From Paraburkholderia fungorum (lineage in GTDB: Bacteria > Pseudomonadota > Gammaproteobacteria > Burkholderiales > Burkholderiaceae): 64,000 nucleotides of DNA. Below the pieces are notes generated by a model. It ran no database searches, had not been told where the DNA came from, and saw only the letters and a list, made by a program, of their open reading frames with translations. Positions 1,113 to 20,434 of this stretch are shown here, piece by piece (within the stretch, counting starts at the first letter, position 1; each line of letters begins with the position of its first letter). The stretch is from positions 434,001 through 498,000 of the forward strand of contig NZ_FNKP01000004.1 in assembly GCF_900099835.1 (NCBI RefSeq), read 5' to 3'. Made by a program: the position numbers and the translations under genes.

Positions 1113-1804
1113 TCCATATGCATTTGGGTCACATTCCGGCGCGGCTGGCAGAACAAATGGACCACAGTCCGCACCGTGGCGCAATGATTCTTGACGCCTG
1201 TTGAGACGTTAGTCACCGTTTTTACAAGTTGGCTGTTATCGCCAACGCCATTTGTTCGCTTGCGACTACCGCAATCCCCCAGTTAGCTGAGTGTTCGGTA
1301 AGGGCTCTATGCACGCTTTTCTGATGCACTCGACACCGTGTACCTGTCAAAGGCGTGCGCCGTCAACCTACCTCGTGGAGACTACGTATAGATGCAGTTA
1401 TTGCACTGATTTTGAGGACGCGATGTCTCGTTTATCGACTAATATTTCGACAACCGCCTGATGCTACTCCGTGGCTGCTGCGTTGGCATGAAATATAGGA
1501 CTCAATTTAGGCAGCGTCTCATTCGCGAACGCGGCCACAACACTTGCACTTCAAATCCGCACGGTTCAGTCGGCACCTGTGGTGCACTCGAACATTTGCT
1601 TGCAACGACCGGCAGTTTCCGTTGGAAAGCGCCCGAACCGAACGCCCGGCCTACTATCACCCGTGATAACTTTACTCTCCGGCACGAACACACGATGTCA
1701 GCGCTCGAACAGCCAGAGCGATTCGTCATCGAATATTCAACTCCCGGCGAATGAATCACCCGCAGGGATAATTTAGAGCCGGCTCGAACTTTGATTGAGT
1801 CTTC
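1113..1804. other. Intergenic leader of the four-gene operon
   Basis: About 700 bases hold no recognisable gene. One open frame on each strand near 1460-1840 has no domain, no good start and irregular codon use. The promoter of the AAA+/radical SAM/helicase operon must lie here or just inside the first reading frame, but I see no clear sigma-70 boxes or regulator palindrome. Confidence 0.35.
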
Positions 1805-1909
1805 GTGCTGATTTACTCCAATGGAAATCAGCAATCTCATTCAAAACGCATATCTACGAGTGCCGCTTATGGTAGCGTCTTGCTTTCTGATCAAGCGACT
1901 TCCGCAGCC

Positions 1910-3733
1910 ATGTCCGTTTATGTAAAACCCCGCTGGTTACGGGATTTATTGCGATTTCTCCCTTTAAAAAGTCAGTTTGTTCTCTCCGGGAACGTTCGCG
2001 ACTTGCAAGCGTGCGAAATCGCACCGGACGTGGTGACAGCGCAGCCGCTTGTGAGTATGTTGAGCCTAAACCTGCGCTCGGAGGGCTATCAGCAGGTGGT
2101 TGTATGGAACCCTGTAGCTGGCTTTACCGTCCCTGACAGCCATGTCCCGCCCACCGAGTCAGCAGAAGACACCCTGCGGCGCCTAGGTCTCACGGCTGTC
2201 GAAGGCGCCGCGCCCGGTGGCTTGGATGCATTGACGGCTTGTCTGGAGCGGATCGCCACACTATCCGGCGAACCTGTCGCGCTTGTGGTGGATTTCGCCT
2301 CGCGACTGGCTGTTCGAACAGAATCGCTGACTGCCGCCGAGCACAACCTTTTCACGCGCGCCCTTGTGCACGCGCACACCATCGCCCCCCGCCCTGCTGG
2401 CCAGCACCGGCGACCGTTTTTCAACACAGTTGTTTGGGTGGTCGACAAGGAGGGAGACCTCCCCGACTGGATGCTCATCGATAATCCGCGCATCCGTCAC
2501 ATCCCGGTTTCGAAACCCGACAGCATCGCTAGAAGCGCCCTGTCTTCTGCGCTCTTGCGCGGAGTCCCGGCTGCGCCGCAAGCGTCACCCGAGACGCTCT
2601 CGGAAGCCAACAAGGCTTTCGTAGATGGCTGCGAGGGCCTTCTCCTCGCGGATATGAACGCCATTGCGACACTCGCACGCGTCGAAGGTGTCACCGTGGA
2701 CAAAATCGCCGACGCGGTCCGGCGATATAAGGTCGGCGTAACGGAAGACCCCTGGCGGCAGATTGACCGCGACAAGATTCGCAACGCGGAGGCAACTGTC
2801 CGCCAGCGCGTCAAAGGCCAGTCGCATGCCGTCACGCACATGCTGGATCTCGTCAAGCGCGCAATGACCGGAGTGGGCTCGCAGCGCAAGGGCAACCGCC
2901 CGCGCGGAGTTGCCTTCCTCGCGGGCCCCACTGGCGTCGGCAAAACCGAACTGGCAAAAACGATTACGAGCGTGCTGTTTGGTGACGAAAGCGCGTACAT
3001 CCGCTTTGATATGTCGGAATTCAGCGCCGAACACGCTGACCAACGCCTCATCGGCGCGCCGCCGGGTTACGTCGGCTACGACGTCGGCGGCGAACTCACC
3101 AACGCCATCCGCGAGCGGCCCTTCAGTGTCGTGCTGTTCGACGAAATCGAGAAAGCGCATCCACGCATTCTCGACAAATTCCTCCAGATTCTGGACGACG
3201 GCGTGCTGACATCAGGGCGCGGCGATCGCGTTTATTTCTCCGAAGCGCTGATCATCTTTACGTCCAACCTTGGCATCTATCGTCAGGATGAGTTCGGCGC
3301 GCGGGTGCCGAACGTGCTGCCCGGCGAGGACTTCGATGAGGTTCAGGAGAAGGTGCTCGGTGAAATCCAGCGGCACTTCAAACTCGTGCTGAACCGCCCC
3401 GAAATACTGAACCGCATCGGCGAGAACGTCATCGTCTTCGATTTCATCCGCGAAGACATTGCGCACGAAATCTTCGAGCAGATGGTATGCGCCGTCCTCG
3501 ACGACATTCACAACCAGGAGGCGGCGGTCGAAATGGTAAGCGAATCGCTGGACGCCCTGCGACGGCAATGCCTAGCCGATTTGTCCAACGGCGGGCGCGG
3601 AATCCGAAACCAGATTGAATCTCGACTCATCAATCCGTTGGCGCGCGGTCTTTTCGACCACGATGCGAAGCCGGGCGACCGCTTCGCTATCACCGGTATT
3701 GATACCGGCGCATTCCATCTGGAAAAGCTGTAA
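1910..3733 (+). CDS. Clp/ClpB-like AAA+ ATPase (first gene of the operon)
   Basis: This 607-residue protein has a Clp/Hsp100 D2-type AAA+ module in its C-terminal half. Visible motifs are Walker A GPTGVGKT (about residue 339), the substrate-threading pore loop GYVGYD (about 386), Walker B VVLFDE (about 407), sensor 1 TSN (about 450) and an arginine-finger segment RPEILNRI. The N-terminal 300 residues look like a second, degenerate NTPase-like domain with hydrophobic strands (FVLSGN, ALVVDF) but no P-loop. Family knowledge points to ATP-driven unfolding or remodelling of a protein partner. No ClpP-docking loop or protease gene is seen. The frame is open back to a GTG at 1805. The ATG at 1910 precedes the first conserved-looking stretch, but neither start has a strong Shine-Dalgarno sequence. 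The radical SAM gene follows after 3 bases, so the two are translationally linked. Confidence 0.85.
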   Translation: MSVYVKPRWLRDLLRFLPLKSQFVLSGNVRDLQACEIAPDVVTAQPLVSMLSLNLRSEGYQQVVVWNPVAGFTVPDSHVPPTESAEDTLRRLGLTAVEGAAPGGLDALTACLERIATLSGEPVALVVDFASRLAVRTESLTAAEHNLFTRALVHAHTIAPRPAGQHRRPFFNTVVWVVDKEGDLPDWMLIDNPRIRHIPVSKPDSIARSALSSALLRGVPAAPQASPETLSEANKAFVDGCEGLLLADMNAIATLARVEGVTVDKIADAVRRYKVGVTEDPWRQIDRDKIRNAEATVRQRVKGQSHAVTHMLDLVKRAMTGVGSQRKGNRPRGVAFLAGPTGVGKTELAKTITSVLFGDESAYIRFDMSEFSAEHADQRLIGAPPGYVGYDVGGELTNAIRERPFSVVLFDEIEKAHPRILDKFLQILDDGVLTSGRGDRVYFSEALIIFTSNLGIYRQDEFGARVPNVLPGEDFDEVQEKVLGEIQRHFKLVLNRPEILNRIGENVIVFDFIREDIAHEIFEQMVCAVLDDIHNQEAAVEMVSESLDALRRQCLADLSNGGRGIRNQIESRLINPLARGLFDHDAKPGDRFAITGIDTGAFHLEKL

Positions 3734-3736
3734 TTC

Positions 3737-4381
3737 ATGGACATCCGGCTTTCTCGACTGCATTTCCCTGTCACGACCCTTGGGCCAGGGAAGCGCATCG
3801 GGATCTGGTTCCAGGGTTGCAGTATTCGCTGCCCGGGCTGTATCTCTGCGGACACCTGGTCGAGCTCAGGCGGCGAGACTACCGTCCAGGCGGTAATGGA
3901 GCAGCTTGAGAGCTGGCTGCCCCACGCCGAGGGCGTCACCATTTCCGGCGGCGAGCCGTTCGAGCAACCGGATGCGCTATCTGCCCTGCTTTCGGCACTG
4001 AAAAGTCGATGGCGGGGCGACGTTCTCGTATATAGCGGGCACCCGTTCGAAGCGCTAACGGACACGCTTGCTGGAATTGAGGGATTAGTCGATGCACTTA
4101 TCACCGATCCGTTTGAGATACAGACACCGCACACGCGGCCACTGCGCGGAAGTGACAACCAGCGCCTTCACCTCCTGACAGACGTTGGACGAGCTCGATT
4201 TGGCGTCTACGAGCGGCGGCTTGTTGAAAGCGACAAGTCAATGGACGTCATGTTTGACGGGGACGGAAGTGTCTGGTTCGCAGGGATACCGAACCGGAAT
4301 GACTTTCAGCGTTTGAGAGACCTATTGATTGATCAGGGCCACGACGTCCAGATCAGCGCCGACAAGGCGAAAATCAGATAA
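3737..4381 (+). CDS. Small radical SAM protein (4Fe-4S single-cluster, NrdG/QueE-like)
   Basis: This 214-residue protein carries the radical SAM cluster motif CxxxCxxC (C28, C32, C35) and the SAM-binding motif GGEP (71-74). The GxGxRxxIWxQGC lead-in is typical of anaerobic-RNR-activase-like (NrdG) proteins. The family generates a 5'-deoxyadenosyl radical from S-adenosylmethionine. The substrate is unknown. No class III ribonucleotide reductase or queuosine gene is adjacent, so neither classical role is supported. It starts 3 bases after the AAA+ gene and ends 8 bases before the giant helicase gene, so it is firmly in the operon. It could modify a nucleotide, a partner protein or an invading nucleic acid; all three are inference. 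The central part (YSGHPFE) resembles activase folds, while the C-terminal 80 residues are not recognisable. Confidence 0.85.
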   Translation: MDIRLSRLHFPVTTLGPGKRIGIWFQGCSIRCPGCISADTWSSSGGETTVQAVMEQLESWLPHAEGVTISGGEPFEQPDALSALLSALKSRWRGDVLVYSGHPFEALTDTLAGIEGLVDALITDPFEIQTPHTRPLRGSDNQRLHLLTDVGRARFGVYERRLVESDKSMDVMFDGDGSVWFAGIPNRNDFQRLRDLLIDQGHDVQISADKAKIR

Positions 4382-4398
4382 GACAGGAAATGTCAGCA

Positions 4399-7300
4399 AT
4401 GATGCGTTTTTGCCCGAAGTGCAAGACCGAGCGGCCCCCTCAGGAGCTCTATTGCGAAGGCACCTTCGCCGATGCCAAGTGCGACTGGGACTTGTCCAGC
4501 CTGCCCTTTCGCCAAAGCGGCTGGAGACCGCAGGAAGTCTTGACCGCCGAGTCGGCTACCAGCATGAACGAAGCGGCAGCCGGGCACGCGCAGCCGCCAC
4601 ATAGTCAGGTCCTGTGCACAAACGGCCACCCGATGAACGACGGGGATCTGATGTGTCTGGAGTGCGGCGCAGATCCGGCGGCCCAGTCGACGGGCAGTGA
4701 GGCCGAGGTATCGGAAGGTACTTCGACCCCGCATACCGTGGAGCCGACACCGCCAGCCACTGAGACGCAAATCGAAGGCTGGCGTTTGATGCGTCAGATT
4801 TCCAGCACGGACGGCGTTCGCGAACGTTACATCGCCCAACATTGCGATACCAATCGCCAGGCGGTCCTGACGCTCTACCGCCAAGGCGCGGAGCCCGACC
4901 CATCTGTCTACGACGTGGTCAAACGCCTGCCCCGCGAGCACGTGCCGGAAATCATTGCCACGGGCCGCTGGGATGGACGCGCGTACGAAGTCGCCGAAGA
5001 ACTCAGTGGCGGAACACTTGCCGACGTTGGCATCGCCGTGCGCGACCTGGCGACAATTCGCCATGTGGTCGACGAACTTGGGCAGGCTCTGCACTCGTTT
5101 TCGGAGGCCGGCCTGCGCCATCGCGACCTGCGGCCCGGCACCCTGCTCGTTCGCAGCCGCGAACCACTCGACCTTGTGATCAGCGGCTTCGGCTCCGCCC
5201 GTCTTTCCGAGTTTGACCTCGACATCGTCTCGCCGCTGGAGACAACGCGATACATGGCTCCGGAAGCCATCGCTGGAGGCGTTGCAGCTGCTTCCGATTG
5301 GTGGAGTCTCGGCATGATTCTGCTCGAGCAGTTGACTGAAGGTCGCTGCTTCGAAGGCATCAACCCGCACGCGTTTCTGATTCATGTCCTGTCCAACGGC
5401 GTCAGCCTGCCGGACGACATCGACCCGTCACTGCATCTCCTGCTACGTGGCCTGTTGGCGCGCGATCGTCACCAGCGCTGGCAATGGGCGCAAGTCAAAG
5501 CGTGGCTCAACGGAGAACAGGTTGATGCCCCTGCAGCGGCGACGTCGGAATCCGACACGCCCGAAGGTGCGAGCATTGCCCTCGGCGCGAAGCAATACCA
5601 TAAGCCGACTGTCTTCGCGCTCGCCGCCGCCGAACGGGAGAATTGGGAAGAAGCCCGAGAGCATCTGAGCCGTGGTGCACTCGTCACATGGGCCGAACAG
5701 GCCGGTGTTACTGTCAAAGCGCTCGCTGGGCTCCGCCAAGCGGCACGACTGGAAGAATCGGACGAAGACTGCCGCCTCATGATTGCGCTGAAGCTGCTCA
5801 ATCCCGAGATGCCGCTGATCATCCGGGGCGAAATCGTCACGCCGGGTTGGTTGTTGCAGAACCCGCTCGAAGGCTACGACCTGATTACCGGCTCGGTACC
5901 GACCTTCCTCGACCGGCTGGAGACGGAAACGTGGCTGTCCCGTCTGCGTGCGCGTGCAGAGGAAGTCCGGCAGCGCGCCCACAATCACAGCATCGAGCTC
6001 GACGAAGACACAGCCCGTGTCAGCATGCTATCGACGTCCCGCGCACGCCTTGCAGCACAGTGGGAGGAAAAGCGCCTGCTCTTCCCGGACTCGACTCACC
6101 CGGGACTGCTTTCGCTGGCAGAACGGCGTGTTATCAGCGAAGAAGACCTCATCGTTCTTTTGAGCGCCGCCATCAGCCAGTTCCGTTCGGTCGAAGAGAT
6201 TCTCGACCAGGCGTCGAATCTCGCGCAGAGTGAACAGATTCTTGCCTTTGATCGCGAAGCAGCGCGAGCCGAGTTGGCCCTGTCGCGTATCGAGCTCTTC
6301 CGCAAAATCGACGAGCGCATCGAAGGCTTCTCACGCACAGGCAATCAGACCATCGACGACTGGGCCGAGCAGTTCCGGCTAGAGCGCCGATTGGCACTGC
6401 ACGAGGCCATCGTCCTGCTGTCGGTGCCGGCAGAGCAATGGCTTGAGCCTCAGAAACAGCAGTATGTTTCCCAGATTCTCGACTTCTTCGAGAAGAAGGT
6501 GGCAACGGCCGTCATGCGCGGCCCGCTTGTGCGCATGACGATCGGCAAGACTACCGGTCGCGTTGACGTCCATGAGCTACATGGCGAACGCCATTCGAGC
6601 ACGGCGCTCGTCGAACACCTGGTACAGCGCAACGTGCAAGCGGTGTCCATCGACCCGGCAATCTTCGGCGCCAACGTCACACTCGAAGGCCGGCTCAACG
6701 CGCTTTACCGCCAGACGTCGCTCTACAAACGAGACACGGGTATCGATGGCCTCTATCTCGGCTTCCCGTTTCTCGTCTACAAGGACACCCGTAGCAACAC
6801 AAAACCGCGCATTACACCGGTGTTGCTGTGGCCTGTCAAACTGCTAATGGAGCTTGGGACGCGCGGTCAGGTAGCGCTCGCCTTCGACGGCGAGCGGGAA
6901 GAAGTCCGCCTGAACCCTGCCCTCGAAGGACTGCTGGGGCGCGACGCAATCAAGGCCTGGCGCGCAGTAGCAGATGATGTACTGGGCCGCTCCGCGCTCA
7001 AGGCCGCTGATGTCATGGACGCTTTCGGCATGCTCGCCAACGTGGAGCGTCGGCAGGTCAGCTCCCTGCCTTCGCCGGGTGTGGAGGTACCTGTGGGTGA
7101 GATGCGTCTCGCCTGCTCGGGTGTGCTGTTCCACGTCACGTTCATTGGCCAGGCGATTGGCGAGGATTTGCGCCAGCTAAAGGTGTTGTCGCCATCGGGG
7201 ACCGCGCTTGAGTCTATGCTCCGCCTGAAAGACAAATCGGCCTACGAGCAATCCGAAGTGGCAGGCACGGAACTCGAACGCTTCCTGACCGTCGCGAGCG

Positions 7301-10300
7301 ACCCCTCTCAGGAATCCGCTGTTTTGCAGGCACGACAAGGACCCGGCCTGTTGGTCGAAGGGCCGCCGGGAACCGGCAAGTCACAGACCATTGTCAACAT
7401 GGTCTCGGATGCGATCGGGCGGGGAAAAAGCCTGCTGATCGTCTGCCAGAAGCATGCGGCGCTGGAAGTCGTGCATAAGCGTCTTGTCGCCGAAGGACTG
7501 GGCGACCGTATCGTCATGGTCAACGACGTCAACAAGGACCGCGAACCGACGATCCGCGCGGTGCGCGAGCAACTCGACGCAATTTTCCGTGGCTCGAATT
7601 TCGACAACGGCTGGGTACGTCAACGCGAGCGCATGGCGGCCCGGATTGAGACGCTGGAGGGCGAACTGGACCGCCAGCACGAGGCCATCCATCGGGTTGA
7701 CGAATCGACAGGGCTGAGCTATCGCGCGCTTCTGGGCGAACTGATCAAGCTAGAGGCCGGCGAACCGCCTGCCAGCGTGCCTCAGTTGCGCACAAAGCTC
7801 TCCGCACTCGACATCTCAGCGCTCACCACGCTTGAAGAGCAATGTGCGCCGCTCGCCCGCTACTGGCTCCCTGCAAAATTCGAGGGCAGCGCATTTGCGC
7901 AACTGAAGTCGTTCGCGACCGATCGGGCGACAATCGAAGAATTCACCGCTATCTTCGCCGCGTTCTGTGAAGCGGAGCGCCTGCGCATCGAAACGCTAGC
8001 AGCGCATCCGGCTCGTTTTGACGTCGATGACCCCGCGCCGTATCGCGCGTGGCTCGATGCGAATGCCAGTCGCCTCGTCGCCCTCGACGAGACACAACGC
8101 AAACGCCTGGCTAAATGGCTGCCGCTTTTCCGTCCGGCGGACGATGCTAACGCGGAGGGTCATCGTCATTACACCGGCCTGAAAGAGCTGCATCGCGCGC
8201 TTCTGGCAGTTGACGGGACAGCCTTCGATAGCCAGCTTTCGCCGGCTCTCGCCCGTGTGCAGGAAGCCGAACTGCGTGAAATCGAGTCGCGCGCCACACT
8301 GGCCACGAAAGCACCGACCTTTTTCAGTCGTCTGAACGCTGCCACCTATATTCGTCGCGGCAAGCTGATGAAGTTCGCGGCTGGTTGCGGCGCACCGGCC
8401 ACTGACGAAACACTGGTCAAGCTGCTAGCTGCAGCTCGCCTTGAACTCAACTGGCGACCGCAACGCCTTGCGCTGGACACCATCAGCCGCGCCCTGAACC
8501 TAAAGACGGTTGATCCGACGTGCGGCCCCACCCTGGCCGATGAATGTTTAATACGCCTTCGCCAGCTCGAAGAGGTTCGGGAGCTGGCGCAGCACCTCGC
8601 TATCGCACCGCGCGGTGATGAGTTCGACTCGGCGGTGCTCACTGGCGACCGCGCACCGGTCGAGCAACTGCTCGACGGCTTTGAAACGGCGTTCGTGCGC
8701 CACAATGCGCGTCAGCACAGTCTGCGAGCACTCCAGCTACTTGATGAGTGGATTTCTGGCGAACTCGCCGATGCCTGCCGCCGCGCCATCGCGGAGAACA
8801 TCAGCTACCAGGCACCGCTCAATCGCATCCACGATGCGTTGCCGACGCTGGCTGCCTACCAGCAGTTCAGGACACGCTCGAAGCACGTCACGCCTGAAGC
8901 ACTCGATGTCTTTGCCGTGATGCGTACTCATGAGGCGACGCTCGCTCGTGTTCCGCCTGAGGATCTCGACTGGGAAGTTCGCCGGATGATCAACCGTGAA
9001 GCGCGCCTCGGCTGGAAGCGACGAATGGAGCAGGAAACGCCGGAACTGTTGCTCGATCAGACGGAAACATCGGCGAAGATTGGTGCGCTTGCAGCCGCCG
9101 ACGAAGGAATGCGCCGGCTCAATCGCGAAGTCCTTCGCAACGGCATTGAACGCAACCGGCTCGGAGCGCAGAGAGACTGGGACGACGTGACGCGCCTGAC
9201 TGGCCGGCGCTCAAGGCGCTTGCGGGAATTCATCGAGATGGGCGCCGGGCTCGGTCTGATGGCTTTACGCCCGGTGTGGCTAATGAATCCCGATGTCGCG
9301 AGCCGCGTGCTGCCGCTAAAATCCAACCTGTTCGACTCCGTCGTCTACGACGAGGCATCGCAGATGCCCGTCGAATACGCAATCCCGACGCTGTTCCGGG
9401 GCACTCTTTCCGTTGTCAGCGGCGACGAAAAGCAGATGCCTCCCACGGCGTTTTTCTCCGGAAGAACGGACAGCGATGAGGCAGATGTCTACGACGGCGA
9501 TCAGCCCGACGAGGACGCAACCGAAGAAGAGCGCGAACTCTTTGAGGACACGTGGAATCGCCGCGAGATCAAGGACTGCCCTGACCTTCTACAACTGGCG
9601 CGCACGGCGTTGCCGGCCTCGACGCTACAGATCCACTATCGCTCTGCTTATCGCGAGCTTATCGGCTACTCGAATTCCGCCTTCTACGAGAACAATCTCA
9701 GCGTGCCTGTCCGCCACCCGGATGCGACCGTCCGCGAGGTCAAGCCGATTGAACTCATTCAGGTCAATGGGCTTTATGAGCAGCAAACGAACTCAGACGA
9801 AGCAGATCGCGTGGTCGATTACCTTGCCGAAGTCTGGCAACAGCCGTTTGAAGAGCGCCCGTCCATCGGCGTAGTGACATTCAACCGCAAACAGGCCGAC
9901 CTCATCGAGGAGCGTCTTGAACTGCGCGCCGAGACCGATGAGGAGTTCCGCACCGCCTACCGCGAGGAAAGCGACCGTGTCGATAGCGGCGAGGACATGT
10001 CCGTCTTCGTTAAAAACGTCGAGAACGTTCAAGGTGACGAGCGCGATGTCATTGTCTTCTCGACGACGTTCGGCCGGAATGGACAAGGCGCTTTCCGTCG
10101 AGCCTTTGGCGTACTGGGGCAGAAAGGCGGCGAGCGCCGTCTGAACGTGGCCGTGACTCGGGCACGCAAGAAGGTGGTCCTCGTGACTTCAATGCCGATT
10201 CGCGACATCTCCGACATGCTGAACACCCAGCGTAAGCCGGCCATCCCGCGTGACTATCTGCAAGGCTATATGGAATATGCGCGCGCCATGTCGAATGGCG

Positions 10301-10710
10301 AACTGCAGACCGGGCGTGCGCTCCTCGGACGCATGACGAGCGAGCGGGCGCACACCAAAATCCAGCAGGACGGCGCACCCGACGGGTTCGCAGGCGATGT
10401 GCTGGCGTTTCTCCGAAGTCTTGGCCTCTCCCCTGTGCCTGCGCAGGAAGGTGACGCCTTCGGACTGGACTTTGCCATTGCGAATCCGGAAACCGGGCTG
10501 TACGCAATCGGCATCGAATGCGATGCGCCACGCCACCCACTACTGCGCCATGCCCGGGCACGGGAAATCTGGCGCCCATCGGTTCTGAGCCGCGCAATTC
10601 CCACGCTTCACCGCGTGTCGTCGCAATCCTGGTATCACGACCCGAAAGGCGAGCGAGCCCGCCTCAAGGAGGCCGTGGAATCTGCGCTGGCCATGGAGGT
10701 CACAGCATGA
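4399..10710 (+). CDS. Giant zinc-ribbon / pseudokinase / SF1 helicase / Vsr-like nuclease protein
   Basis: The protein has about 2103 residues. An N-terminal zinc ribbon uses C5, C8, C19 and C28; a second uses C73, H77, C86 and C89. Residues 124-380 resemble a Ser/Thr kinase: HRDLRPGT is present (H241), as is an APE-like MAPEAI. However, DFG is replaced by SGFG (262-265), the catalytic-loop Asn by Thr, and no VAIK lysine is evident. A long alpha-helical region follows. The SF1 (COG1112/DUF4011-type) helicase has Walker A GPPGTGKS (988-995), Walker B DEAS (1651-1654) and C-terminal motifs including QGDERDVIVFS and NVAVTRARKK. The last 110 residues resemble the Vsr-like REase domain found on such helicases, with LDFAI (D2024) and IECD (2039-2042). 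An AGGA at 4385 favours ATG 4399 over 4390 or 4402. The stop overlaps the next start (ATGA). Likely role: nucleic-acid sensing, unwinding and cleavage in a conflict system. Confidence 0.88.
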   Translation: MMRFCPKCKTERPPQELYCEGTFADAKCDWDLSSLPFRQSGWRPQEVLTAESATSMNEAAAGHAQPPHSQVLCTNGHPMNDGDLMCLECGADPAAQSTGSEAEVSEGTSTPHTVEPTPPATETQIEGWRLMRQISSTDGVRERYIAQHCDTNRQAVLTLYRQGAEPDPSVYDVVKRLPREHVPEIIATGRWDGRAYEVAEELSGGTLADVGIAVRDLATIRHVVDELGQALHSFSEAGLRHRDLRPGTLLVRSREPLDLVISGFGSARLSEFDLDIVSPLETTRYMAPEAIAGGVAAASDWWSLGMILLEQLTEGRCFEGINPHAFLIHVLSNGVSLPDDIDPSLHLLLRGLLARDRHQRWQWAQVKAWLNGEQVDAPAAATSESDTPEGASIALGAKQYHKPTVFALAAAERENWEEAREHLSRGALVTWAEQAGVTVKALAGLRQAARLEESDEDCRLMIALKLLNPEMPLIIRGEIVTPGWLLQNPLEGYDLITGSVPTFLDRLETETWLSRLRARAEEVRQRAHNHSIELDEDTARVSMLSTSRARLAAQWEEKRLLFPDSTHPGLLSLAERRVISEEDLIVLLSAAISQFRSVEEILDQASNLAQSEQILAFDREAARAELALSRIELFRKIDERIEGFSRTGNQTIDDWAEQFRLERRLALHEAIVLLSVPAEQWLEPQKQQYVSQILDFFEKKVATAVMRGPLVRMTIGKTTGRVDVHELHGERHSSTALVEHLVQRNVQAVSIDPAIFGANVTLEGRLNALYRQTSLYKRDTGIDGLYLGFPFLVYKDTRSNTKPRITPVLLWPVKLLMELGTRGQVALAFDGEREEVRLNPALEGLLGRDAIKAWRAVADDVLGRSALKAADVMDAFGMLANVERRQVSSLPSPGVEVPVGEMRLACSGVLFHVTFIGQAIGEDLRQLKVLSPSGTALESMLRLKDKSAYEQSEVAGTELERFLTVASDPSQESAVLQARQGPGLLVEGPPGTGKSQTIVNMVSDAIGRGKSLLIVCQKHAALEVVHKRLVAEGLGDRIVMVNDVNKDREPTIRAVREQLDAIFRGSNFDNGWVRQRERMAARIETLEGELDRQHEAIHRVDESTGLSYRALLGELIKLEAGEPPASVPQLRTKLSALDISALTTLEEQCAPLARYWLPAKFEGSAFAQLKSFATDRATIEEFTAIFAAFCEAERLRIETLAAHPARFDVDDPAPYRAWLDANASRLVALDETQRKRLAKWLPLFRPADDANAEGHRHYTGLKELHRALLAVDGTAFDSQLSPALARVQEAELREIESRATLATKAPTFFSRLNAATYIRRGKLMKFAAGCGAPATDETLVKLLAAARLELNWRPQRLALDTISRALNLKTVDPTCGPTLADECLIRLRQLEEVRELAQHLAIAPRGDEFDSAVLTGDRAPVEQLLDGFETAFVRHNARQHSLRALQLLDEWISGELADACRRAIAENISYQAPLNRIHDALPTLAAYQQFRTRSKHVTPEALDVFAVMRTHEATLARVPPEDLDWEVRRMINREARLGWKRRMEQETPELLLDQTETSAKIGALAAADEGMRRLNREVLRNGIERNRLGAQRDWDDVTRLTGRRSRRLREFIEMGAGLGLMALRPVWLMNPDVASRVLPLKSNLFDSVVYDEASQMPVEYAIPTLFRGTLSVVSGDEKQMPPTAFFSGRTDSDEADVYDGDQPDEDATEEERELFEDTWNRREIKDCPDLLQLARTALPASTLQIHYRSAYRELIGYSNSAFYENNLSVPVRHPDATVREVKPIELIQVNGLYEQQTNSDEADRVVDYLAEVWQQPFEERPSIGVVTFNRKQADLIEERLELRAETDEEFRTAYREESDRVDSGEDMSVFVKNVENVQGDERDVIVFSTTFGRNGQGAFRRAFGVLGQKGGERRLNVAVTRARKKVVLVTSMPIRDISDMLNTQRKPAIPRDYLQGYMEYARAMSNGELQTGRALLGRMTSERAHTKIQQDGAPDGFAGDVLAFLRSLGLSPVPAQEGDAFGLDFAIANPETGLYAIGIECDAPRHPLLRHARAREIWRPSVLSRAIPTLHRVSSQSWYHDPKGERARLKEAVESALAMEVTA

Positions 10711-12053
10711 GCGGCCCGAAAGTCGTGCGAATCGTGACTCGCGAGGAAATTCTCGCGATATGCGAAGGCCATCTGCAACGCCTTGATCAAGCGATTTCGG
10801 CGTGGACCACAGTCGGCAAGCGCATCGGAGAGCTTACGCAATCGGAAATCGATGCGACGCATGCGCGTCGGAAAGCGCTCGCGGCACTCATTGCTACCGA
10901 AGCCTTTCTCGACCTGCAAAAGCGTGTACCTGAGGAAATCGGGTTCCTTCACGCCGACATTGAGCGTCGGCGAATGCTCGCGGTCGACAAGGCTGAGCAA
11001 GCTCAGAAGCGTCGACGGCAAGGTCGGGCCAGTGCGAGTACGCTCCTTCACTCGCTGAAGGCAAAAAATGTGGACGTCCCAGCAGACCTGGAGTCGCAAC
11101 TGAAGCAAATCGCAAACGGCGGCGAGTTTGCCAATGCAGACGCCCTCCTCGCGCGCGCATTTGCCCTCATCCCAACCGAAGGATCTCGTGAAGTAAGCGA
11201 AGCACAGCGGCAACTCGCAAGCCGCTTGCAAGGCGACCAAAAGGTACAAAGCGTTGAGAGCTGGAAAGCCGCGCAGACAGTCGTCCCGCCTCAGCTGGCT
11301 CGGGTCGACAGGCAGATCGCGGAAGCTCACGTATTCATCGCGGCCGAGGAAACTACAGCATTCACGTCACGTCTGGGCGTCATCGAGGGCGAACCCGTCG
11401 AGGCCCGACGCAATCTCCTGCTGGATAGCTTGATTCTGGACCTCTCCGATGCAGTCTCGCGCTCACGAAAACGCCTCACGGTGCTTGAGGAAATTCAAGA
11501 ACTGGCTGCGGAGCTCCGCACGCACGATAGCGATGAAGCCAAGGCGATCCTCGCGAGAGTCCAGCGCTGTGACGACCTCGAGTCTATCGAAGCGGCCTCA
11601 GCGCTTCTAGAAGACTGCAAGAATGCCATCATCGCTGAACAACAACGCGAAGCCGCCCACGCGCGTCGGGCCGCCATTCTTCAAGGCCTGTCGCGGCTGG
11701 GCTACGAAGTCCACGAAGGCATGTCAACCGCGTGGGCCAACGAGGGGCGCATTGTCGTCAAGAAGCCCTCGCTGCCGGGCTACGGAGTCGAAGTCGGTGG
11801 ACAGGCGCAAGCAAGCCGGCTACAGGTCCGCGCAGTTGCACTAACTGCGAACCGCGATGCGACTCGCGACAAGGATGTCGAAACTATCTGGTGTGGTGAC
11901 TTCGGCAAACTTCAGGCGCTCCTCGCTGAGCATGGCGACAATCTGCTGATTGAGCGCGCCATCGGCGTTGGACAGGTGCCGCTGAAGATAGTGGACGATA
12001 GCGCGCATGAACAGGCCGACTTAAATCAGCGAAATACACGTCAGGGCCTTTAG
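10707..12053 (+). CDS. Coiled-coil protein, last gene of the putative defence operon
   Basis: This is a 448-residue soluble protein with no recognised enzymatic domain. It opens with MSGPKVVRIVTREE followed by a helical segment. From about residue 20 to 370 it is rich in Ala, Glu, Arg and Leu with heptad-like spacing (for example AVDKAEQAQKRRRQGR), which suggests long coiled coils. The last 110 residues look globular and beta-rich (GYEVHEG, VVKKPSLPGYGVEVGG), ending in a variable tail. The ATG overlaps the giant gene's stop codon by four bases, so translation is coupled. An elongated partner of this kind could be a structural, sensor or bridging subunit for the helicase or the AAA+ protein. 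This is inferred from context alone. Confidence 0.75.
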   Translation: MSGPKVVRIVTREEILAICEGHLQRLDQAISAWTTVGKRIGELTQSEIDATHARRKALAALIATEAFLDLQKRVPEEIGFLHADIERRRMLAVDKAEQAQKRRRQGRASASTLLHSLKAKNVDVPADLESQLKQIANGGEFANADALLARAFALIPTEGSREVSEAQRQLASRLQGDQKVQSVESWKAAQTVVPPQLARVDRQIAEAHVFIAAEETTAFTSRLGVIEGEPVEARRNLLLDSLILDLSDAVSRSRKRLTVLEEIQELAAELRTHDSDEAKAILARVQRCDDLESIEAASALLEDCKNAIIAEQQREAAHARRAAILQGLSRLGYEVHEGMSTAWANEGRIVVKKPSLPGYGVEVGGQAQASRLQVRAVALTANRDATRDKDVETIWCGDFGKLQALLAEHGDNLLIERAIGVGQVPLKIVDDSAHEQADLNQRNTRQGL

Positions 12054-12561
12054 GAGCCGATGTGACGGCCCGAACGACCATTCGCACAGTTGGCAGCCGC
12101 TCACGATAGCTATTGAGCGCATCCAGAACCCAACTGGCGGATTGTCGCCTAGATGCGCTTTCCGAATTTCAGGTACAGGTTAACCGCCCGAATGCGGTCG
12201 TCGTATGGATACATGGACTACCCTCCAAAGTAGTCCAAGATTTGGTCCGCACCCCCATTGCGCCGCTCCGGCTGGCTGCTGAGATAAAGAACTCGCATTT
12301 TCGCCAATCACCGTCTATGGCAGCCCATCGGTCCGGATACAGACTCATTCAAGAACAGTCTCCTCGAAAAGATTACGTCTCCGGCGCCGATGCGAGGCCC
12401 GGGCGTATATGTCTCACTGAGGCGCCTTCAGTCACTCTTAGCATGTTTGCATGAAAGCATATGAAAATTCGACACTAGCCGACGGACTACACTGGCTCTA
12501 GAATTCCAGCGAAATTAAGCATACGTCTGAGCATTTTTTCGCAGTTGTCTGGAGTGATGTC
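12054..12561. other. Intergenic region after the operon
   Basis: About 500 bases with no supported gene. Short frames here show no domains. The last 120 bases before the SsuA-like gene are AT-rich and probably hold its promoter. No terminator hairpin was clear directly after the coiled-coil gene. Confidence 0.35.
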
Positions 12562-13560
12562 ATGGAAGGGAAACGCCGAAGGTTCTTGATTCAAACAGCT
12601 GGCGCAGCAACAGGGATTGCAACTGCGTTGCTCGCATCGCGAAAAACGGAAGCCGCACCCTCCGACACTATTAAGCCGAATTCGGTATTGAATGTTGGCG
12701 TCGGCAGTGTGTTGGGGCCGGACGTGCAGATGCGAGTCTCCGGCTTCGAACGTGACCTCCCGTACAGCCTGAAGTGGGCAAACTTCGAAGCATCTCCGCC
12801 TGCGATGGAAGCACTCGCTAATGGACATCTTGATATCGTTCTGGGTGGCGACACTCCGTTGCTCTCTTTAGCAACCTCACCCGGCCGGATGGTTGCCGTA
12901 CAGGCACGTGCTCAAGCACTCTTCGCCGCTCTACTCGTGCCAGCGGGCTCATCCATTCACAGCGTAACGGAACTCAAGGGAAAACGCGTTGCTGTCTATC
13001 ACGGTGCCGGTTTCCAAGGCAGCCTGATCCGGATTCTTAGAGAGGCCGGTCTCCGCTGGAGTGACATACAACCTATTTATCTCGCGCCTGGCGACGCAAT
13101 GGCTGCCTTCACGACAGGTAAGGTTGACGCCTGGGGCATATGGGACCCCAACGCTGCTATTGCGCAAACGCAGTTTGGGGCCAGCATTCTCTCGGTTCCA
13201 AAACCGTCAGGTTATGGATTCCAGTACGCAAACGCCAACAGCATTGCAGACCCGAACAAAAGGGCAATGATCCTAGATTATCTGACCCGCAGTCAGCGGG
13301 CAGCTGACTGGATTCGCACTCACCCGGCGCAGTGGGCTCAGGAAGTGATAAGCAGCTCACATATGCCGAAGAATGCAGCGTTGCTCTCGGCAGGACGAAC
13401 CGGCGGAAAGTACACACCGATCGACTCAACGCTTGTCGAAGACATGCAGCGTGAGGCTAATGACTTTGCGGAACTCGGAGTTCTGCCACATCGCGTCGAT
13501 GTGCGGAACGCCTTCGACACCCGCTTCGATCCGGCACTGGAGAAGGTGTTTCACGGTTGA
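12562..13560 (+). CDS. SsuA/TauA-like periplasmic binding protein (aliphatic sulfonate type)
   Basis: This 332-residue protein begins with a Tat-like signal: RRRFL near the N-terminus, a hydrophobic Ala-rich segment, then a likely cleavage around residue 30 (TEAAP). The mature part reads as an NMT1/SsuA-type type II binding protein, with LKGKRVAVYHGAGFQGSL and a repeated DAWGIWDP-like hinge signature. Such proteins bind alkanesulfonates, taurine or sulfate esters for an ABC importer. GGAG sits 8 bases before the ATG. No permease or ATPase gene is nearby, so it must share a distant transporter. With the flavin monooxygenase and sulfurtransferase downstream it fits organosulfur scavenging. Ligand identity cannot be read from the sequence. 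Confidence 0.8.
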   Translation: MEGKRRRFLIQTAGAATGIATALLASRKTEAAPSDTIKPNSVLNVGVGSVLGPDVQMRVSGFERDLPYSLKWANFEASPPAMEALANGHLDIVLGGDTPLLSLATSPGRMVAVQARAQALFAALLVPAGSSIHSVTELKGKRVAVYHGAGFQGSLIRILREAGLRWSDIQPIYLAPGDAMAAFTTGKVDAWGIWDPNAAIAQTQFGASILSVPKPSGYGFQYANANSIADPNKRAMILDYLTRSQRAADWIRTHPAQWAQEVISSSHMPKNAALLSAGRTGGKYTPIDSTLVEDMQREANDFAELGVLPHRVDVRNAFDTRFDPALEKVFHG

Positions 13561-13574
13561 GACAGAGGACTTTT

Positions 13575-13600
13575 TCTCCGAGCTCGAGGAGACTCCTTTT
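13575..13600 (+). terminator. Possible terminator after the SsuA-like gene
   Basis: A short inverted repeat (TCTCC / GGAGA) around a GAGCTC core is followed by CTCCTTTT, about 15 bases after the stop codon. The stem is only five pairs, so this is a weak candidate. Confidence 0.4.
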
Positions 13601-13837
13601 ATATGCGGACTCAAGGCGGGAGGACACATACGCTTGCAACTATGAGGCTGGAAAGAAGCTACCAGCGTGACAACGCTTCATTGCACTCACGAACGCGCGG
13701 CCCAACTTGATGCACTTGCAGCCTAATCGACGAGGAAAAAGCTGGGTTGGGCCCATAGACTTCCGTCTTTGGTTCAATCTTGAGCAGCGCTCGCGCGGCC
13801 GTGACATCTTTCCTGAGGTGAGACCCCCAAGATGCTA

Positions 13838-14401
13838 CTAGCACCCAGGCGGATCAAAATGATTGATGAGTTTTCCTAGCAGAGAGATCAAAGCCTTTCG
13901 CTCAGTGCTATCCAACGGGGCCAATAGGTGCGTCGCCGATGATCTGGCTAGCTCGTCCGAGCGTGTGAAGGCGGCCAGGCCCTTGGTCGTGAGTGTAATT
14001 AGCGCTTTCCTTCGATCGTCGCCGTCCCTTCGTTTCTCAATGAACCCTCGTTCGCTTAGGATTTTTACTATGAGCGCCGTAGTGGACCGGTCAAGCGACG
14101 TGTACTTTGAAATGCTTGCCTGATCCGCACTGCCAAGCTGATTTAACACGAACATTACCGCATTCTGACTCGGCGTGACGTCCATCTCCTTGCACGTGTT
14201 GATGAAGATTTCGGACGCTACCTGATGTGCCCGGCGGATCATGAATCCTGGTCGCCAGTAAAGATCGTCGAAAATCGCACCGTCAGTCCGGTCGTTGTCT
14301 ACATCAGACGACGGTGCCCCGTTATGCGTCGACTCCTCAATACTCAGGGCGGTCTTCCTAGACGCGTTTTTTGGCTTGCTCGCCAGCATTCTTTCTCTCA
14401 T
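13838..14401 (-). CDS. MarR-family transcriptional regulator
   Basis: The protein has 187 residues. After a polar N-terminal extension of about 45 residues comes a MarR winged-helix core: a first helix (GFMIRRAHQVASEIF), the recognition region ASISKYTSLDRSTTALIV and the wing RRDGDDRRKALITLT, whose DxRxxxLxLT pattern is diagnostic of the family. These are dimeric repressors, often relieved by phenolic or oxidised ligands. It is transcribed away from the porin gene and the probable organosulfur genes, so it likely controls itself and that porin. A perfect 12-bp palindrome lies 47 bases upstream. A second ATG at residue 5 (14389) is also possible. Confidence 0.9.
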   Translation of the reverse strand: MRERMLASKPKNASRKTALSIEESTHNGAPSSDVDNDRTDGAIFDDLYWRPGFMIRRAHQVASEIFINTCKEMDVTPSQNAVMFVLNQLGSADQASISKYTSLDRSTTALIVKILSERGFIEKRRDGDDRRKALITLTTKGLAAFTRSDELARSSATHLLAPLDSTERKALISLLGKLINHFDPPGC

Positions 14402-14710
14402 ATTCCACCTACGAGGTAGCTTTTCTAAATAAGTTGTTTCGAATTCGACAGACGTCTGTGCAATTATAGATCATCTAGGTTTTTAAAGATCATGCACCAT
14501 GCTGGCGATCGTAGGCTGAAATAAATTTCGATACAACTTCTTTCTCCGCTCTGTGATTAGTTATCCATATCAAAGTGATGTGCGGACCGATACATGGCAT
14601 CTGTCTTCGTCATCGATATGCGCGCACGTTTAGGCGATCAACGCATCAACATCCAACAGTCCATCGGAATGATGGGTAGGTTGACAATTTTAAAATTCGA
14701 GCTTGAAAAT
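14402..14710. promoter_or_regulatory. Divergent marR/porin control region with palindromes
   Basis: This AT-rich region separates the MarR gene from the divergent porin gene. It contains TCGAATTCGA (14439-14448) directly abutting ACAGACGTCTGT (14448-14459); both are perfect palindromes. About 20-45 bases further on there are two copies of AGATCAT. MarR proteins bind palindromes of this size between divergent genes, so ACAGACGTCTGT is the best operator candidate. Promoter boxes were not confidently assigned. Confidence 0.5.
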
Positions 14711-15865
14711 ATGTCAAAAACAACAGCAACTACAATGTCTTCTAAAAGTGTGACGGGGATTTTCTGGCGCGTCTTCTTCCCGGCATCTATCTTCGCCTTT
14801 GTATGCGCTCCGGTTCACGCACAAAGCAGCGTCACACTGTACGGAATCGTTGCAGAGGGAATAGGCTATATAACCAACCAGGGCGGAAAATCGGTAGTCG
14901 GTATGTACAATGGACTGCTGCAAAATTCTCGCTTTGGCATTCGAGGAAAAGAAGACTTGGGTGGCGGTAACTCCGCTATCTTCCTTCTAGAAAATGGATT
15001 TTCTGTCACCACAGGTGCATTAAGCAGTGGAAAACTGTTCGGACGTCAAGCGTGGGTTGGATTGTCCAACGATAAATTTGGAAAGATCACACTCGGCCGG
15101 CAATACGATGAGATGTCTCAGCAGTTGTGGTGGTCTGAAGCGTCCACGCAATTCGCAACGGCTATTGCAACACACATAGGTGATCTCGACAATATTTTTA
15201 ATACCACAAGACTCGACAACAGCATCAGATATGCATCGAGAGACTATGACGGATTCACCTTCGCCGGGCAGTATGCATTCTCCAACTCCACCGCCTTTTC
15301 CGACAACAGCGGCTATAGTCTCGGTGCAAATTATGTCAGAGGATCCCTGACAGCAGGGGTGGCAATGGTACAACTCCTGCACCCCGCATCTTCCAATACT
15401 GGCGGCGCTGTCGGTGATACTTACGGCTTCACTTCACCATTTACCCAAAGCCTCAGCGGTTCAAGCGTCGACAGCCAACGAAACGTCGCCGCCGCAGTAA
15501 CCTACGATTTTGGCTGGGCGACGACAGGCCTCAGCTATTCCAATGTACTTTTTAATTATCAAAATTCAACCGGCCTGCGACTGCAAAATGTTGAATTCAT
15601 GGCATACAGGCATCTGACACGCACATTGCTCGTCGGGGTCGGCTATGACTATACGTTCGGATCGTATTCAACGGGACAGGCAATTCACTATAACCAGATC
15701 AACTTGGGCGCTATCTATTCATTGAGTAAGCGCACCGATCTTTTTCTCGCTGCAATTTACCAACGAGCAGGTGGTGCCGCAAAGCACGCGCAGCTTTACA
15801 GCCTGTCACCGTCGTCTTCTCGAAGTATCGCTGAAGTTGCCACCGGCATACGTGTCAAATTCTGA
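14711..15865 (+). CDS. Outer-membrane porin (Gram-negative porin, Porin_4/OmpC type)
   Basis: This is a trimeric 16-strand general porin, 384 residues from the ATG at 14711. The open frame extends 39 codons upstream, but the signal peptide begins only after this ATG: a basic start, a hydrophobic stretch ending FVCAPVHA, then mature QSSVTLYG, the hallmark start of Burkholderiales porins. Internal features include SRFGIRGKEDLGGG (strand 2-3 hairpin), GRQAWVGLSNDKFGKITLGRQYD and the loop-3 region, ending in a C-terminal aromatic (VKF), the usual assembly signal. It is AT-richer than neighbouring genes. Placed before a flavin monooxygenase and next to MarR, it probably admits the organosulfur substrate. 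Confidence 0.9.
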   Translation: MSKTTATTMSSKSVTGIFWRVFFPASIFAFVCAPVHAQSSVTLYGIVAEGIGYITNQGGKSVVGMYNGLLQNSRFGIRGKEDLGGGNSAIFLLENGFSVTTGALSSGKLFGRQAWVGLSNDKFGKITLGRQYDEMSQQLWWSEASTQFATAIATHIGDLDNIFNTTRLDNSIRYASRDYDGFTFAGQYAFSNSTAFSDNSGYSLGANYVRGSLTAGVAMVQLLHPASSNTGGAVGDTYGFTSPFTQSLSGSSVDSQRNVAAAVTYDFGWATTGLSYSNVLFNYQNSTGLRLQNVEFMAYRHLTRTLLVGVGYDYTFGSYSTGQAIHYNQINLGAIYSLSKRTDLFLAAIYQRAGGAAKHAQLYSLSPSSSRSIAEVATGIRVKF

Positions 15866-15919
15866 CGTTATCGAGAAATACCGTCATAGACGCACACATA
15901 CATAAACTGAGCCAATGCT

Positions 15920-17245
15920 ATGAGTCAAGCCCGACAGATTCGCCTCGCCACGCTGTTCAACGCAAATGGATTTCACATAGCCGGATGGAGGCATCCGGAC
16001 ACGCAATCCGAATCTGCCTGGGATATCGACCACTATGCTTCCATCATTAAGACAGCGGAACGCGGGCTGTTCGACCTGGCATTCCTGACGGATAGTGTTG
16101 GGATGCTTTACGATGGAGACCTTGAAGTCGCGTCCAGGTTTGCCCCGATCAATTTCCTTGAACCACTAACTTTGTTAAGTGCACTCGCGCCCCAAACAAC
16201 CCATATTGGACTGGTCGCAACCGCCTCGACTTCTTACAATCATCCTTATCATGTTGCGCGAAAATTCGCATCGATCGACCATTTGAGTAAAGGACGTGCG
16301 GGCTGGAATCTCGTGACATCTGCCACAAACGCTGAAGCCCGGAACTTTGGTCGGGATTCTCATCTGGAGCACGCCGATCGCTATGTAATCGCGAAAGAGT
16401 TTTTCGATGTTGTCGTTGGCTTGTGGAACAGTTGGACTGACGACGCGGTGCTTGCTGATAAGGACGCCGGTGTCTATTTTGATCCCAATAAACTTAAGTT
16501 ACTGAATCACCGAGGCGACCATTTCTCTGTGAAAGGACCGTTGAACGTATTCCGGTCTGCGCAAGGCCATCCGGTCCTGGTCCAGGCGGGGTCGTCCGAA
16601 GCCGGGATAGCGCTTGGTGCGGAGACTGCTGAGGTCATCTTTACCGCACAACATGAGCTGGACGGGGCGGTTCAGTTTTACTCCGACGTAAAGTCACGTG
16701 CTGTTCAACATGGCCGTGCCGCCGAAGACCTGCTTATCCTTCCTGGAATCGTGCCGTTTATCGGAAGATCGCGCGAAGAGGCGCAGGAAACTTTCGAGAA
16801 AATACAGGGGCTGATCCATCCGGTGGTAGGCGTAAGACTGCTGTCTGAACTGCTAGGTATTGATCTATCGACTTACCCAGTCGATGGACCATTGCCTCCT
16901 CTACCGGAAAGCAACGGTCACAAAGCGCGTCAAGCGTTGTTAATTGAAACCGCGCGTCGAGAAAACCTCTCGATCCGCGCTCTATATGAGCGTGCCGCCG
17001 GAGCTCGTGGGCATCGAATATTGATTGGGACGCCAATCGACATTGCAGACGATCTGGAGCATTGGTTCACCAGCGCTGCCGCGGACGGGTTTGCTGTAAT
17101 TCCGCCAATACTCCCCTCCAGCCTCGAAAGCTTCGTGACCCTGGTCGTTCCCGAGTTGCAGCGAAGAGGACTGTACCGGCAACGCTATCAGTACACCACC
17201 TTGCGGGAGAATCTTGGCCTACCAACGAAGACGCAACACTCATAG
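15920..17245 (+). CDS. LLM-class FMN-dependent monooxygenase (NtaA/SnaA/DszA family)
   Basis: This 441-residue, soluble, bacterial-luciferase-like TIM barrel belongs to the long NtaA/SnaA/DszA/SfnG-type branch, judged from the opening (IRLATLFNANGFHIAGWRHP), the substrate-facing segment THIGLVATASTSYNHPYHVARK and the motif GRAGWNLVTS. These enzymes use FMNH2 from a separate reductase to oxidise sulfones, sulfonates, dibenzothiophene sulfone, nitrilotriacetate or similar substrates. No flavin reductase gene is nearby. Its place between an SsuA-like binding protein and a sulfurtransferase favours C-S bond cleavage. The length agrees with the family (about 440-460). Confidence 0.88.
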   Translation: MSQARQIRLATLFNANGFHIAGWRHPDTQSESAWDIDHYASIIKTAERGLFDLAFLTDSVGMLYDGDLEVASRFAPINFLEPLTLLSALAPQTTHIGLVATASTSYNHPYHVARKFASIDHLSKGRAGWNLVTSATNAEARNFGRDSHLEHADRYVIAKEFFDVVVGLWNSWTDDAVLADKDAGVYFDPNKLKLLNHRGDHFSVKGPLNVFRSAQGHPVLVQAGSSEAGIALGAETAEVIFTAQHELDGAVQFYSDVKSRAVQHGRAAEDLLILPGIVPFIGRSREEAQETFEKIQGLIHPVVGVRLLSELLGIDLSTYPVDGPLPPLPESNGHKARQALLIETARRENLSIRALYERAAGARGHRILIGTPIDIADDLEHWFTSAAADGFAVIPPILPSSLESFVTLVVPELQRRGLYRQRYQYTTLRENLGLPTKTQHS

Positions 17246-17344
17246 CCTACAAGTCAGCTAAGTTAAATCTTCCAATACGTCGTATGCGGGCGGGAGCACT
17301 AGGATATCGCGCGCTGCAAAATCAATTCGCACATAGGGCTCATC

Positions 17345-18145: not shown

Positions 18146-18188
18146 AGCGCGCGCACTTAATCTCCACTCAATTGAAAGGAAAGCTCGT

Positions 18189-20102: not shown

Positions 20103-20434
20103 TGATGCTTCCCCTTGGCGCTTCGGTGATCTCATTGGACAACTGTTAAAGAATTGCATGCAGTAACGCAGAAATTACGATACCCCCTCTCAAAGTTATC
20201 ACTAACGTAGTGCTCTTAATTGCTTGACGCACACCCGATGGGCTTTTTCATTTCATTAAAATCCCTTGCTTCAGATTAAAGAACCGAGTTACGGACGGTT
20301 GGGACGACTACGAGCGACGAAAATCACTCGCCAGAATTCGGCAACTCAAAAAGCCCGTGAATTCGCGTACGGATCTAGAAATTCAGACCATGCGATCAAA
20401 CCACACGCGTGTACCTGACACTGCTGTCATCCGT

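Follow-up and report, generated by a model that had tools for sequence, protein, structure and literature searches.

What brings a Clp-type unfoldase, a radical S-adenosylmethionine (SAM) enzyme, a giant helicase-nuclease and a coiled-coil protein of no family together in one bacterial operon? The question is raised by a 64,000-nucleotide stretch of Paraburkholderia fungorum DNA (positions 434,001 to 498,000 of contig NZ_FNKP01000004.1, assembly GCF_900099835.1; this whole stretch is hereafter the window), which lies on a contig of 503,609 bases in an 8.58-Mb genome and in which four co-directional, packed open reading frames (ORFs) occupy positions 1910-12053 of the plus strand. In order, these are g1, a ClpB/ClpC-type AAA+ protein of 607 amino acids (1910..3733; Pfam, NCBIfam, motifs and a predicted model); g2, a radical SAM protein of 214 amino acids resembling NrdG and the pyruvate formate-lyase (PFL) activase (3737..4381; Pfam and NCBIfam); g3, 2106 amino acids, in which zinc ribbons are followed by a pseudokinase, a DUF4011/superfamily 1 (SF1) helicase and an MTES_1575 nuclease (4390..10710; PADLOC, Pfam and NCBIfam); and g4, a coiled-coil protein of 448 amino acids with a C-terminal alpha/beta domain and no family (10707..12053; PADLOC, Pfam, NCBIfam and an AlphaFold2 model). 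The answer that we favour, and hold to be somewhat probable, is that the operon encodes a single conflict machine, anti-phage or anti-plasmid, that is directed at nucleic acids and controlled by the unfoldase and the radical SAM enzyme; its role in defence, the component that is modified or remodelled and the nature of the target, DNA or RNA, are what we infer here.

A conserved four-gene unit

An earlier interpretation made from the letters alone (the sequence-only reading) had taken the four genes for a unit, since only 3 and 8 bases separate them at two junctions and at one they overlap by 4 bases. The ORF coordinates bear out this packing, and the operon is present as proposed, except that its span was drawn from a GTG at 1805; the ATG at 1910 is the more likely start of g1 because public relatives mostly measure 607-617 amino acids (607 in the annotated Rhizobium copy), the g1 starts extracted here having leaned to starts near that of the query and thus providing no independent proof. 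The unit recurs, as anticipated, in other genera: a scan with g4 of 84,980 species genomes, by a method that recovers close relatives only, yielded 18 loci, every one of which carries all four genes in the same order (the contig of L019 ends within g1). Among 16 further hits in the window's family, taken as Burkholderiaceae, 10 regions were examined and all 10 hold the four genes, three of them (L037, L007 and L012) repeating loci already counted. Pairwise distances among the g1-g4 proteins correlate (r 0.90-0.97, 20 sequences), so that gene order and protein divergence alike uphold the unit. The operon occurs on conjugative plasmids, and all 8 proteobacterial plasmid records recovered via g1 also contain g4.

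The g4 family is found in 17 of the 299 genomes of the window's family (its own genome counted; one hit is only a fragment), in 8/199 genomes of the genus of Pseudomonas fuscovaginae genome G686 (one of them weak) and in 10/398 genomes of the corresponding Pseudomonas family, G686 counted. Of 398 genomes from the phylum of the window, 7 have a relative of g1 (E<=1e-90), four being of the present layout (type A) and three of other types. The DNA match to a near relative, Paraburkholderia caffeinitolerans (L006; blastn, 90.4% identity, plus strand 1771..12098) stops at both ends, the flanks not aligning, so that in this comparison the operon is a discrete, sharp-edged cassette. Its genes are richer in GC (0.58-0.62) than the sequence directly beside them (0.54); the remaining window has 0.57-0.58. 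In L053, g3 looks broken at its end, and broken or truncated g3 copies are also seen in L077 (12435-16465), L073 (6174-11350), L036 (14681-19383) and L038 (943-3692), some of them adjoining insertion sequence elements or transposases or an integrase-like ORF, the last recognized by eye.

A helicase-nuclease with a dead kinase

Residue counts for g3 refer to 21 full-length type-A sequences, with the distant L035, which has no kinase domain, and cut copies excluded; all coordinates are on the plus strand. The protein opens with two zinc-ribbon-like clusters, Cys 8, 11, 22 and 31 (4411..4482) and Cys 76, 89 and 92 (4615..4665), each conserved in 21/21 aligned sequences. A kinase domain (4765..5499; Pkinase, 62 bits) is followed by a Pfam match to DUF4011 (6673..6930; 43 bits), the two parts of the SF1 helicase, AAA_11 with the motif GPPGTGKSQT (7300..7680; 51 bits) and AAA_12 (9610..10191; 73 bits), and a C-terminal nuclease domain, REase_MTES_1575 (PF18741; 10387..10674; 61 bits, with support from the alignment). 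The helicase also matches IGHMBP2/SMUBP-2. In the nuclease, Asp 2027 and Glu 2043 are present in 21/21 sequences and Asp 2045 in 20/21.

The kinase, assigned by Pfam, motifs and alignment, retains HRD, with the catalytic-loop Asn in two sequences only. An active Ser/Thr kinase was considered and rejected: the VAIK Lys is replaced by Tyr and the DFG Asp by Gly (GFG) in all 21 sequences, and we therefore regard the domain as catalytically dead. Together, the helicase and nuclease motifs, the dead kinase and the cysteine clusters suggest that g3 would recognize and cut nucleic acid.

The unfoldase, the radical SAM protein and the coiled-coil protein

In g1, Pfam recognizes AAA_2 (154 bits), and the second, D2 ring (2900..3685) has intact motifs, namely GPTGVGKT, the GYVGYDVGG pore loop and DEIEKAHP. 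The first, D1-like half retains AAA-like features (FVLSGN, VVDFAS), and no Walker A motif is visible there on inspection of the aligned sequences; Pfam returns no match to the Clp N-domain. A predicted model, weak in quality (predicted local distance difference test, pLDDT, 69.7), aligns with ClpC, ClpB and ClpA chains over about 650 columns. Two identities were discarded: ClpB disaggregase, because g1 scores 263.5 bits against the TIGR03346 cut-off of 1232 and lacks a visible Walker A in the first ring where ClpB would have two active rings, and the type VI secretion ATPase ClpV, because it scores 207 bits against the TIGR03345 cut-off of 884.95. That one Clp ring is intact, while neither the protease nor the disaggregase types match at family level, suggests that g1 remodels a dedicated partner.

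Judging from its motifs, g2 is a member of the radical SAM superfamily: the three cysteines of the CxxxCxxC [4Fe-4S] motif (3818..3841) are present in 22/22 aligned sequences and the Glu of GGE in 21/22. Pfam reports Fer4_12 above its cut-off (84.9 bits) and the general Radical_SAM model just below (26.2 bits, cut-off 29.5), and PADLOC returns no match at E<=0.01. The protein shares CxxxCxxC and GGE with NrdG and the PFL-activating enzymes, which raises the alternative that it is an ordinary NrdG, activating a class III ribonucleotide reductase and placed here by chance. The NrdG match of 78.8 bits is in favour of this; however, that score falls below the TIGR02491 cut-off of 126.1, so that membership of the NrdG family is rejected, and g2 is bound to the operon in 18/18 loci. 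Furthermore, NrdD was not found in the window's genome (0/1) by a search that was positive in 6/14 control genomes, so that g2 is unlikely to function as NrdG here, and we consider the ordinary-NrdG explanation extremely improbable. The Pfam results (AAA_2 with GYVG, Fer4_12 with CxxxCxxC, Pkinase, DUF4011, AAA_11/AAA_12 and REase_MTES_1575) agree with the domains that the sequence-only reading had named.

The coiled-coil protein g4 has no match in Pfam, NCBIfam or PADLOC; one public relative carries the label PF27157, which the Pfam search of g4 here did not return. Its AlphaFold2 model (pLDDT 84.3) is long and helical and ends in an alpha/beta domain, and Foldseek finds no match to this fold at E<=0.001. 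With a mean identity of 47%, g4 is the least conserved of the four proteins, and its N-terminus (10707..10727) is strikingly constant: MSGPKVV is identical in 23/23 aligned proteins (L028, L030, L031, L033 and the fragment L040 excluded) and at least 90% conserved in an alignment of 59 rows. This end has low confidence in the model, consistent with flexibility, and a threading motor or a modifying enzyme would require just such a conserved, flexible tail.

A shared three-protein module with exchangeable partners

The AAA+ protein, the radical SAM protein and the coiled-coil protein, the last mostly starting with MSGxPK or MSGPK, recur in related operons on plasmids and in other phyla, where the remaining parts are exchanged for an SF1 helicase with a PIN nuclease or for kinases, a phosphatase and an FHA protein. 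One is on a plasmid of the clostridial Aristaeella lactis (L035), recovered via g1 at 37% identity, where a nine-gene stretch (5191-23053) encodes a DUF4011 helicase-nuclease, two kinases, FHA, phosphatase and DUF6273 proteins, a coiled-coil protein, a radical SAM protein and the AAA+ protein. A search of L035 for a protein starting with MSGPK found one, the coiled-coil protein, which has 776 relatives at E<=0.001; MSGPK is present in 30/30 aligned sequences, comprising this protein and 29 of the 120 relatives listed.

The AAA+ protein of L035 led to a second plasmid layout (type B), in which SF1 helicase, PIN, coiled-coil, AAA+ and radical SAM genes form five-gene operons in 4/4 loci examined (L042 8499-18452, L043 8743-18462, L044 8716-18423 and L045 5867-15778). 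The hosts are Moellerella, Acinetobacter (a plasmid named pNDM1, near BREX), Photobacterium and Polaromonas. The type-B coiled-coil and AAA+ proteins co-occur in 10/10 plasmid records, six of them from a single species of Moellerella, and these coiled-coils start with MS, without GPK. In the only type-B operon scanned (L043), no named system fits, its helicase matching MkoA at 320 bits.

A cyanobacterial plasmid and two other contigs encode coiled-coil proteins starting with MSGSPK, MSGTPK and MSATPK beside or near an AAA+ protein; a radical SAM gene lies about 9 kb away on the plasmid, and none was seen on the other two contigs, which are short. The plasmid cluster (L041 6634-17998) comprises the radical SAM gene, several small GTPase-like proteins recognized by eye, the MSGSPK coiled-coil and the AAA+ gene, and is near an anti-phage dCTP deaminase and a dGTPase. 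In L074, a coiled-coil protein starting with MSAEA, an AAA+ protein and a radical SAM protein are followed by phosphatase- and kinase-like matches.

Profiles of the C-terminal domains of coiled-coil families A to D were compared with reversed controls, which gave 0.23-0.69; one of the four B sequences failed the cut pattern. The B-D pair gave P=3.9e-6 (probability 87%), C-D 3.6e-4 (37%), A-C 2.3e-3 (12%) and B-C 0.10. The profiles thus link one pair of families well, while for type A the link is only suggestive.

Comparison with named systems

No PADLOC, Pfam or NCBIfam model names the four-gene unit, partial or below-cut-off matches being all that these collections return, and the claim that it matches no named defence system is upheld by PADLOC and NCBIfam. 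The matches of g3 are the most extensive. It is not Hhe (320.5 bits against the NF042953 cut-off of 2000, best stretch about 470 residues) and not the anti-phage protein ProA (502.2 bits against the NF058533 cut-off of 1500, best stretch about 1100 residues), and it scores 482 bits in two stretches to the PADLOC candidate PDC-S37, best over positions 290-1343 of a 1550-position model (about 1100 residues). Hhe and ProA are helicase-nucleases of the DUF4011 type. The helicase-nuclease part is common to g3 and all three models, from which g3 differs by its N-terminus of zinc ribbons and kinase and by its four-gene operon.

Mokosh type I carries a kinase domain. The SF1 helicase is common to Mokosh and the operon, and g3 scores 159 bits to MkoA, for which PADLOC gives no cut-off, in three stretches, the best aligning residues 1646-1936, in the C-terminal helicase part, with 789-1077 of 1112. 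Unlike Mokosh, however, the operon has a pseudokinase and additional AAA+, radical SAM and coiled-coil genes, and neither g1, g2 nor g4 matches MkoB (PADLOC, E<=0.01). With Dodola, g1 shares the Clp D2 ring (74 bits to DolB in PADLOC, no cut-off given), and at E<=0.01 there is no match to the partner DolA in g1, g2 or g4. The radical SAM relative of type B matches viperin models at 28 bits, whereas g2 itself has no PADLOC match at E<=0.01. In the vWA-MoxR-FtsH ternary systems, a radical SAM gene likewise stands beside ATPase-based conflict genes, as noted in a passage of PMC7159879, whereas g1-g4 have no vWA match (Pfam, E<=0.01). The operon would then be a helicase-nuclease conflict system whose control module is apparently undescribed. 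The sequence-only reading had called it a candidate undescribed defence system: no account of it as a system was found in the literature, preprints and most subscription journals lying outside the scope of the search, whereas part of PMC10250203 does mention a small hypothetical gene, a DUF4011 gene and a radical SAM gene as the border of a hotspot.

The border of a Pseudomonas defence hotspot

The strongest link of the operon to defence is its synteny with that border, in four Pseudomonas-family genomes. In the relevant section of PMC10250203, the right border of the P. aeruginosa 'core defense hotspot 1' (cDHS1) consists of these three genes, opposite pheS/pheT-ihfA-merR-tRNA-Pro; the section names no AAA+ gene and assigns the border genes no function. 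The position of ihfA was determined in 17 Pseudomonas-family genomes. In 4 of them it lies 8-44 kb from g4 and faces the operon across a gene island, and all 4 have g1-g4 in order and tRNA-Pro beside ihfA; a PheT-like ORF was recognized by eye in three of the four. This arrangement appears to match cDHS1, and the genomes would presumably be those of P. aeruginosa.

Ten ORFs were chosen from three of these islands, and seven of them match PADLOC models. One island has matches to DndH (235 bits) and, weakly, REase_II, a second to SspH, MkoA and PDC-M27C, and the third to PDC-S36/TmtA and, weakly, REase_II. The L267 island (3105-17792), which separates tRNA-Pro from the operon, has a Vsr-like ORF, recognized by eye, a protein of 1830 amino acids with a C-terminal DndH match, and an ORF with a weak REase_II match. 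In strain PAO1, we take PA2725-PA2728 to be this operon, with PA2727 and PA2728 presumably the helicase-nuclease and coiled-coil genes. PA2727 and PA2728 carry within-host mutations, and one table in PMC4918941 files both under replication and repair.

Conflict machine, maintenance system or landmark

We read the operon as a conflict machine because its four genes recur in order while their presence is patchy and the cassette is sharp-edged against L006; because the helicase and nuclease motifs are conserved and the kinase is conserved in a dead state; because g3 scores 482, 502 and 320 bits to the defence or candidate-defence models PDC-S37, ProA and Hhe; because the AAA+, radical SAM and coiled-coil proteins recur with an SF1 helicase and a PIN protein, in one case near BREX brxL and DarT; and because the operon faces ihfA and tRNA-Pro across islands with PADLOC-matching ORFs.

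In such a machine, g3 would be the sensor-effector, with the zinc ribbons and the dead kinase fold providing contacts, the SF1 helicase running on foreign or aberrant nucleic acid and the C-terminal endonuclease cutting it. The control module would consist of g1, with one active ring of two, g2 and the coiled-coil adaptor g4, which might hold the assembly together and whose exposed SGPK tail is a likely site of docking, threading or modification. Upon a trigger, g1 would pull on the complex or disassemble it, freeing the nuclease, and g2 might set or mature the switch by a radical-based modification of g4 or g3.

Several observations weigh against a defence role or a fixed four-gene unit. The sequence-only reading had proposed a check for known defence genes nearby; the cDHS1 synteny answers to it, but the flanks elsewhere give no clear answer. 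At E<=1e-10, and with families rather than ORFs counted, 135 flanking ORFs match 37 PADLOC families (HerA, DUF4297, MADS, DrmD, IetA and others) and 116 ORFs of hand-picked control stretches in nine of the genomes match 10 (ThsB, CARF, transposition genes and others); given that one ORF can match many families, we claim no clear enrichment. Of ten flank ORFs scanned singly, one had matches (MADS-type, in L052). The window's own neighbours are ordinary, with LysR, MFS, efflux OEP, KfrA, YhcG nuclease and IS66 genes upstream and NMT1-like and MarR genes downstream. Of the other 13 Pseudomonas-family genomes with a located ihfA, five have it at a large distance on the contig of the operon and seven on a different contig, which in a draft assembly still permits linkage; one is undecided. 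Four of the 12 plasmid records that match g4 have no g1: two are remnants consisting of a cut g3 and g4, and two are fragments. L077, recovered via g1, has g1, g2 and the broken g3 without a g4 match. Between some close Burkholderia loci the flanks align too (blastn), as in ordinary vertical descent, and viral contigs yielded one operon remnant. Finally, the coiled-coil comparison is not significant for the C-terminal domains of A-B (0.16) and A-D (0.21), and over the whole length A versus C gives E 0.005 with a probability of only 6.7%.

The main rival is a genome-maintenance or stress system, in which the helicase-nuclease would act on damaged DNA of the host or on its stalled forks, and would be recycled by the Clp/radical SAM module. 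According to the part of PMC10250203 that deals with the border, its genes are present in every P. aeruginosa isolate and are treated as core flanks; the genes around the operon in several Pseudomonas genomes seem, by eye, to be metabolic, and Ku genes lie about 10 kb from the operon in L039. The within-host mutations in PA2727 and PA2728 and their filing under replication and repair also speak for this rival. Nevertheless, the patchy presence, the conjugative plasmids, the cassette edges against L006, the swapping of effectors and the remnants beside transposases or an integrase-like ORF do not fit this explanation well, and we consider it unlikely. A role in translation or RNA surveillance is less probable still: the match of the AAA_11/AAA_12 helicase to IGHMBP2/SMUBP-2 and the PIN domain of type B would suit a UPF1/IGHMBP2-like helicase acting on RNA, with a nuclease (PIN in type B) that cuts RNA and a Clp ring that clears proteins, but the type-A nuclease matches a model of restriction-endonuclease type, PF18741, and the distribution is patchy. 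Equally improbable, in our estimate, is a passive role, in which the operon of Pseudomonas marks the edge of an integration hotspot without itself taking part in immunity. The corresponding passage of PMC10250203 does weigh high-degree nodes as candidate immune systems and rejects this for the cluster that it describes, the right border being core flanks; outside that site, however, the operon still keeps all four genes, and its domains resemble those of conflict systems.

A broader and more tentative proposal is possible, which we put forward as speculation: a Clp unfoldase with one dead ring, a radical SAM protein resembling NrdG and a coiled-coil adaptor, usually with a conserved N-terminal tag of MSGPK type, might form a cross-phylum module that serves as a portable switch on different nucleases (DUF4011-REase, SF1 helicase with PIN, or kinase/phosphatase/FHA relays). 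This would be the first immune or conflict machinery known to us in which radical chemistry on the machine's own protein components has a regulatory role; in P. aeruginosa, it would be a fixed immune set guarding cDHS1. Should this hold, bacterial immunity would gain a regulatory module for repeated use, built on radical SAM chemistry and a Clp-type unfoldase, and the genes that border a much-used defence hotspot would form a system in their own right. The proposal makes it a testable question why some Pseudomonas retain these genes at the edge of an island with changing phage-defence genes.

Genomic surroundings

Some plasmid loci lie within a few kilobases of brxL of BREX and DarT (one locus), of an AbaSI-type nuclease and an antirestriction gene, and of an anti-phage dCTP deaminase. 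Upstream of the window, the KfrA-type plasmid gene, the YhcG (DUF1016) nuclease and the IS66 transposase are located at L034 6066-8969 and 2336-3916; these genes suggest that the contig belongs to a megaplasmid or to a replicon with plasmid-derived DNA.

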